A DNA stretch of 39,665 nt, taken from the NCBI GenBank assembly GCA_015521325.1, contig WAOK01000055.1, positions 1-39,665 on the forward strand. Reading direction: 5' to 3'. The notes beneath the pieces are model-generated. The model was given only the letters and a program-made list of their open reading frames with translations. It did no database searches and was not told the origin of the DNA. Origin of the DNA: Desulfurococcales archaeon. GTDB taxonomy: Archaea; Thermoproteota; Thermoprotei_A; Sulfolobales; NBVN01. The translations under genes were made by a program, and so were the position numbers. Of this stretch, positions 16,031-17,096 are shown piece after piece. The stretch's first letter is position 1; the number at the start of each line of letters is the position of its first letter.

Positions 16031-16298
16031 CATTGACCTCCTCCTTAACAGCCTCAGAGAAGATCTTTAGGAAAGCACCCACGTTACCGACGACCGCGAC
16101 ACCGACGCCCATCACTAGGAGTGTCGCTGCCCCAAGCCCCCTCAGTCCACCGAAGTTAATGACTAGCCTTCCGGTGGCGGCATCAATGCTCATGCTTATG
16201 GAGGCTGACGACAGCACAAACAGTGCACCAATGACCGTAAAGACCGTCGATATGAAGAAGAACTTTGCCCCGTAGTACATCGCCTTATCCCAGCGCAT
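16014..16298 (-). CDS. Small two-helix membrane protein of unknown function
   Basis: 94 residues from ATG 16298. Two hydrophobic helices (FFFISTVFTVIGALFVLSSA and LGAATLLVMGVGVAVVGNV) flank a short polar hairpin (SISMSIDAATGRLVINF). I recognise no family. The start was chosen because CTTATAAC (around 16336-16343) lies about 43 bases upstream and GGTGCGGTGGG supplies a ribosome-binding site just before ATG; a longer frame to 16400 would run through the promoter and the sRNA gene. It overlaps the convergent surface-protein gene by 12 bases. Confidence 0.6.
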   Translation of the reverse strand: MRWDKAMYYGAKFFFISTVFTVIGALFVLSSASISMSIDAATGRLVINFGGLRGLGAATLLVMGVGVAVVGNVGAFLKIFSEAVKEEVNGRSLW

Positions 16299-16325
16299 CC
16301 CACCGCACCGGTTTAGGTAAGCGAG

Positions 16326-16346
16326 CGGTCTAACGTTATAAGACCG
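16326..16346. promoter_or_regulatory. Inverted repeat over the TATA box of the small membrane protein gene
   Basis: CGGTCT-AACGTTATA-AGACCG has 6-bp arms around a 9-base centre holding the minus-strand TATA element (TTATAACG). An operator covering the promoter of the 94-residue membrane protein is a reasonable inference. It also lies about 29 bases downstream of the sRNA on the same strand, so it could instead be a processing or termination structure. Confidence 0.35.
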
Positions 16347-16374
16347 TGGGTTGGGTGAGATAGTAATATTTTGG

Positions 16375-16430
16375 GGCTCAGAACCCGAAACCGTCATCAC
16401 GGCTCAGGCTATCTAGCCCTCATCAACGCC
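16375..16430 (-). ncRNA. Dual-guide C/D box sRNA targeting 23S rRNA
   Basis: On the minus strand: stem GGC (16430-16428), box C TTGATGA (16426-16420), 12-nt guide GGGCTAGATAGC (16419-16408), box D' CTGA (16407-16404), 3-nt spacer GCC, box C' GTGATGA (16400-16394), 12-nt guide CGGTTTCGGGTT (16393-16382), box D CTGA (16381-16378), stem GCC (16377-16375). Spacing is ideal for an archaeal C/D sRNA. The D guide complements ACCCGAAACC and the D' guide complements AUCUAGCC, both in one stretch of 23S rRNA about 15 bases apart (E. coli ~670-692, recalled from memory). By the box D plus five rule, predicted methylations are near C673 and U686. The 5' half overlaps the 3' end of nth. Confidence 0.88.
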
Positions 16431-17096
16431 TACTTTGGGGCAGATGTCCGAGAGTGGGCACTCACCACACCTCGGTTTCCTGGCAGTACAGATCCTTCTG
16501 CCATGGGTTATTAATAGGGTGTGGAGTTTCAGGAGCGCCTCCCTGTCTCTCCCCAGTTCCTTGATCACCGCCTCTCTGATTGCTTCATACTTTTCTCCTC
16601 GCCTGATGAAGCCTAGCCTTGTGAGGACGCGCCTACAATGCGTATCTATTGGGAATGTTGGGTAGCCCCTCACCATTAAGAGGAATACGTCGGCTGTCTT
16701 TGGCCCTATTCCGGGAGTGCTGAGGAGCTTCTTTGCGAGAGTCTCTGGGTCCTCACTCATGAGTGTCGTTTCGTCGAATCCCTGAACGATTGCCTTAATT
16801 GTTCTCGCTTTCTGTCGCTGCATTCCGGAGACCCTTATTGCGTTAGCTATCTCCTCGATCGACATAGCCAGTAGCTTCTTCCTCGATAACCCATCACTAA
16901 TCTCGTAGAGTCTCTCAAGCGCGACGTTGGCGTTCTTATCATTCGTGTTCTGCGTCAAGACGATCGCTATGAGTGTGCCCAGCGGACCCAGGCCCTTCGC
17001 CTTGGCGAGCATGGCCGTGAATTCCTCGGCGTTTGGGGGCCAGCCGTAGGCCTTCTCGAGCCTCCTTAGCACCTCCCTAAGCATCGGCGCCCTCAA
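16413..17096 (-). CDS. nth: Endonuclease III-like DNA glycosylase/AP lyase
   Basis: 227 residues of the HhH-GPD superfamily. The helix-hairpin-helix STPGIGPKTADVFLL carries the catalytic Lys, FPIDTHCRR the catalytic Asp, and the C-terminus has a canonical C-x6-C-x2-C-x5-C iron-sulfur loop (CTARKPRCGECPLSDIC). It removes oxidised pyrimidines and nicks the abasic site. TTG 17096 is used here; ATG 17084 (MLREVLRRLE) is equally plausible. The last codons and the TAG stop are shared with the C/D sRNA, whose box C is read as part of Val-Asp-Glu. Confidence 0.93.
   Translation of the reverse strand: MRAPMLREVLRRLEKAYGWPPNAEEFTAMLAKAKGLGPLGTLIAIVLTQNTNDKNANVALERLYEISDGLSRKKLLAMSIEEIANAIRVSGMQRQKARTIKAIVQGFDETTLMSEDPETLAKKLLSTPGIGPKTADVFLLMVRGYPTFPIDTHCRRVLTRLGFIRRGEKYEAIREAVIKELGRDREALLKLHTLLITHGRRICTARKPRCGECPLSDICPKVGVDEG

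Follow-up and report, generated by a model that had tools for sequence, protein, structure and literature searches.

The minus strand of the window, that is, the whole 39.7-kb stretch of DNA that was analysed, carries the endonuclease III gene nth at 16413–17096 (Pfam HhH-GPD, 4.3e-15; EndIII_4Fe-2S, 3.2e-8). A C/D box sRNA of ~56 nt including its terminal stem was located on the same strand at 16375–16430, based on a unique box pattern, Rfam C/D models and conservation in G043, which is the sole genome of the genus besides that of the host. The sRNA was read 5′ to 3′ as GGCG-UUGAUGA-GGGCUAGAUAGC-CUGA-GCC-GUGAUGA-CGGUUUCGGGUU-CUGA-GCC. The 5′ arm of the terminal stem (GGC, 16428–16430) is separated by a single G from box C (UUGAUGA, 16420–16426), which coincides with the Val-Asp-Glu codons of nth. 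The D′ guide (16408–16419; predicted to target U790 of 23S in E. coli numbering), box D′ (CUGA, 16404–16407), the D′–C′ spacer (GCC, 16401–16403), box C′ (GUGAUGA, 16394–16400), the D guide (16382–16393; predicted target 23S C673), box D (CUGA, 16378–16381) and the 3′ arm of the stem (GCC, 16375–16377) follow in this order, all on the minus strand. The boxes were recognised by sequence and pattern search, and the stem arms by sequence. The resulting layout, C-12-D′-3-C′-12-D with both guides 12 nt long, shows the box order C, D′, C′, D and the ~12-nt guides of archaeal C/D box sRNAs, and its boxes, guides, 3-nt spacer and GGC/GCC stem are exactly those described in the initial annotation.

A search for the four-box pattern with up to three mismatches returned a single match in the window, this sRNA, without any mismatch, and none in 100 dinucleotide shuffles of the window. 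When the whole window was searched, the Rfam models sR1 (RF01152; 35.9 bits, E 1.2e-5) and snoPyro_CD (RF00095; 34.7 bits, E 1.1e-3) both matched exactly 16375–16430. No Rfam family reached its gathering threshold for the sRNA (35.9 bits vs 45 for sR1), so that no existing Rfam family covers it. Two features count against the assignment: the first nucleotide of box C is U rather than R, and just 3 bp make up the terminal stem. The isolated sRNA folds as a hairpin hiding both guides, and protein binding is therefore presumed. The genes of fibrillarin and Nop5 are present and adjacent in the host genome (contig C79 of G000). At least 10 strict C-D′-C′ motifs occur in the host genome vs 0 control matches, and most of them also occur in G043.

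A second C/D box sRNA was observed in the window at 1962–2015 on the plus strand (GATGATGT-12-CTGA-3-GTGATGA-13-CTGA; snoPyro_CD, 31.1 bits). It starts 2 nt past the stop codon of a CorA-like gene, overlaps the possible start of an NfeD-like ORF and has a D guide that matches 23S over 10 bp. The G043 copy has lost the D′ guide, box D′ and the spacer by deletion and retains the whole D guide and box D, so that the sRNA of one species may be a half guide.

The overlap with the 3′ end of nth was corroborated, since the reading frame of a gene identified as endonuclease III by Pfam runs through box C into the D′ guide. The end of the gene, GTT GAT GAG GGC TAG, covers box C and reaches into the D′ guide, and the stop codon TAG (16413–16415) falls within this guide; its first 7 nt are coding, and its non-coding remainder includes AUAG. 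The sRNA is kept beside nth in G043, where it is 92.7% identical to the host copy, compared with 78.5% for the nth coding sequence that precedes it. Conservation of the boxes in relatives, which had been proposed as a check, was found there: the boxes and guides are retained, the non-coding AUAG is identical, the spacer has drifted from GCC to UCA and the terminal stem is GGC/GCU. Within the family, the sRNA accompanies nth at only 3 of 20 loci (the host, G043 and G149, a genome of another genus in which the nth stop sits in box C), and linkage to nth is therefore not general. Approximately 25% of archaeal C/D sRNA genes overlap the 3′ end of an ORF (PMC7994747), and a stop codon inside such an sRNA is ordinary for this class. 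Just downstream of the sRNA, a ~68-nt intergenic block (16293–16360, minus strand) is 97% identical in G043 and more conserved there than nth or the next ORF. This block folds at −24.8 kcal/mol, contains the ATG of the next ORF, was found in this genus only and is possibly a structured leader.

Covariance model and pattern searches found neither 23S nor 16S rRNA in the host and G043 assemblies, and guide pairing was therefore assessed on the 23S rRNA of relatives, namely, 10 other genomes of the family from six genera. All 10 of these 23S genes contain GACCCGAAACCGGGCGAUCUAGGCGG. The D guide pairs with GACCCGAAACCG, a target invariant in the 10 genomes, over 12/12 bp (11 Watson–Crick and one G-U), and its best site in 16S has 9 bp compared with these 12. 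The U→C change next to box D in the G043 guide turns the G-U pair with 23S into G-C, thereby giving 12/12 Watson–Crick pairs. According to the established N+5 rule for C/D-guided 2′-O-methylation (PMC4644070), the predicted site aligns to E. coli C673, as the initial annotation had held. In some genera, the register of the D guide relative to box D shifts by one nucleotide, and G674 replaces C673.

The D′ guide led to a different site from that first proposed, U686. In the 23S of the family, guide positions 4–12 form 9/9 Watson–Crick pairs with CCAAUCUAGCCC, the pairing being broken at positions 1 and 3, which adjoin box D′. The N+5 nucleotide corresponds to E. coli U790 and lies 118 nt 3′ of the C673 site; at both C673 and U790 the N+5 nucleotide lies in a Watson–Crick pair in the relatives' 23S. 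The register on U790 is constant in all confident homologues. Homologues of other genera pair with U790 too, one of them over 12/12 bp with a compensatory change, and no comparable site was found in 16S. The reading in which the D′ guide directs methylation at U686, 13 nt from C673, draws on AUCUAG being present at that place in the family 23S with the N+5 nucleotide a paired U. Only 6 contiguous pairs form there vs 9 at U790, because the family 23S reads AUCUAGGCG in place of the E. coli AUCUAGCCA; it contains GAUCUAGGCG, not GAUCUAGCC. Together with the U790 pairing of the homologues, including a covarying pair described below, this makes methylation at U686 very improbable. The premise that the two complementary stretches are separated by no more than 25 nt holds for E. 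coli 23S and fails in this lineage, whose 23S reads GAUCUAGGCGG at the downstream stretch; the argument from a shared region falls with it and is replaced by two sites at the base of one helix. What stands of the earlier interpretation is a double-guide C/D sRNA directed at 23S domain II, overlapping nth and aimed at C673; alignment to the relatives' 23S bore out the D guide over its full length and removed U686 as the D′ target.

The chance expectation was estimated with 352 arbitrary 12-mers preceding CTGA in the window, which were scored identically. Single matches as good as that of the D guide were obtained for 7 of the 352, one being the D guide of the second sRNA, and a comparable pair of joint sites within 150 nt arose once in 20000 random pairs of pre-CTGA 12-mers. 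The lone D-guide match is thus weak evidence; it is the joint match, together with covariation, that carries the argument.

Homologues were collected using a sequence model (R1) built from three sRNA copies; at a cut-off of E ≤ 0.01, it gave matches in 102 of the order's 214 genomes. Among these, the strong ones are double-guide sRNAs sharing both guide cores, and the weakest include C/D sRNAs without relation to the family. Most homologues are not at nth, and the CUAGAU core of the D′ guide is retained in most of those away from it. The D target in 23S has two alleles across the order, CCCGAAACC and CCAGAAACC. In the genomes where both genes were read, the D guide fits its own 23S allele in 12/12 cases and acquires a mismatch when paired to the other; related genomes are counted among these, so that the independent events are fewer than 12, perhaps three. 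The CCCG/CGGG combination occurs in seven of the 12 genomes (guide GGUUUCGGG, one a GU variant) and the CCAG/CUGG combination in the other five (guide GGUUUCUGG). One genus has both alleles: in G017 and G006 the 23S D target is not the same (CCCG or CCAG), and each of the two carries the sRNA guide that fits its own (loci L232, L218, L097 and L094). At the other site, the D′ target of G018 has changed to AAUCGAGCCC, and its guide GGGCUCGAUUGG pairs 12/12.

These matched changes are compensatory, between two unlinked genes, and this covariation is the strongest evidence for the predicted guiding on 23S. It makes a guide function of the sRNA very likely. A resemblance arising by chance from nth codons and downstream sequence, with no sRNA made, could appeal to UGAUGA and CUGA being short words in a protein-coding region; the absence of shuffle matches, the order-wide homologues and the guide–target covariation render it extremely improbable. 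Another possibility is that the D guide works alone and the D′ stretch persists chiefly as code for the Nth C-terminus and stop, given that coding sequence extends over the initial 7 nt of the D′ guide and that the D′ pairing is shorter than the D pairing. This we regard as highly unlikely, as the CUAGAU core is kept in most homologues though the sRNA sits elsewhere, the G018 D′ guide changes in step with 23S and the non-coding AUAG is the same in G043.

The two targets of the double guide are linked by one helix, in which CCGGGC after the first target pairs with GCCCGG in the second, and which we take to be helix 35. Two-sided changes occur in this helix in relatives (CCGGGU/ACCCGG and CCGAGC/GCUCGG). 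Methylation is known to be concentrated in helix 35 (PMC4644070). In the proposed mechanism, L7Ae, Nop5 and fibrillarin would assemble on the C/D and C′/D′ motifs, the D guide would pair with GACCCGAAACCG and direct 2′-O-methylation at C673, and the D′ guide would pair with AUCUAGCCC and direct 2′-O-methylation at U790. The targets lie on both strands of the helix, as in a chaperone-type double guide, and each guide occupies part of one strand, so that the RNP would hold the helix open until release. The sRNP probably also grips both strands, thereby aiding helix formation after it leaves. The D register slides in several genera while the U790 register is fixed in the confident homologues, which hints that the pairing is as important as the precise nucleotide methylated. 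Archaeal C/D sRNAs are mostly without promoters of their own, and the boxes suffice for maturation (PMC7994747); the mature sRNA is on this ground probably excised from the nth mRNA. Taken as a whole, it is highly probable that this is a double-guide archaeal C/D sRNA, processed from the nth 3′ end, which would methylate 23S C673 and U790 and probably aid their helix.

This sRNA adds to the known archaeal C/D class an unusually clear record of guide–target co-evolution. The guides of archaeal C/D sRNAs are reported to evolve fast and to share few targets. Here, a double guide is traceable across many families of one order with the rRNA changing alongside, thereby allowing a clean test in nature of what selection retains, the methyl group or the pairing with two strands (RNA chaperoning). 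A broader reading, to which we give slightly less than an even chance, is that of an order-wide double-guide family that has kept its pairing to both strands at the helix 35 base while its gene moved between loci and the D register slid by one nucleotide from 673 to 674. If true, this would suggest that the bridging of the helix matters more than which nucleotide is methylated, and that the nth overlap would be one of several stations of a moving sRNA gene.

No published description of this sRNA family was found in a search covering mostly literature outside subscription. Sulfolobus sR1 (RF01152) and Pyrococcus snoPyro_CD (RF00095) share the boxes, the spacing, two 12-nt guides and the terminal stem with this sRNA and differ from it in their guides. 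Two yeast C/D snoRNAs, snR60 and snR39b, offer a eukaryotic parallel, and their target nucleotides may correspond to the archaeal sites. They act on the H33–H35 part of 25S (snR60: Am817 and Gm908; snR39b: Gm805; PMC2806949, PMC9196750), and snR60 has two guides ~90 nt apart, similar to the double guide here (PMC2806949). Among archaeal C/D sRNAs overlapping ORFs (Tripp et al. 2017), the commonest place of the stop is box C according to a review (PMC7994747); unlike these, the present sRNA has the stop in its first guide (box C in G149). A chaperone model was proposed for the Nanoarchaeum equitans sRNAs sR15 and sR17 by Dennis et al. 2015 (PMC4644070), and in the same study these two and Ignicoccus hospitalis sR472 carry, as here, guides for opposite strands of one helix. 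The sR472 sites listed there, 23S C897 and G1017, are 120 alignment positions apart compared with 118 nt here, a comparison made by published site names only, in which the D′ site is given as G1017 and not as a U (PMC4644070). I. hospitalis sR472 may be a relative of the sRNA described in our study.
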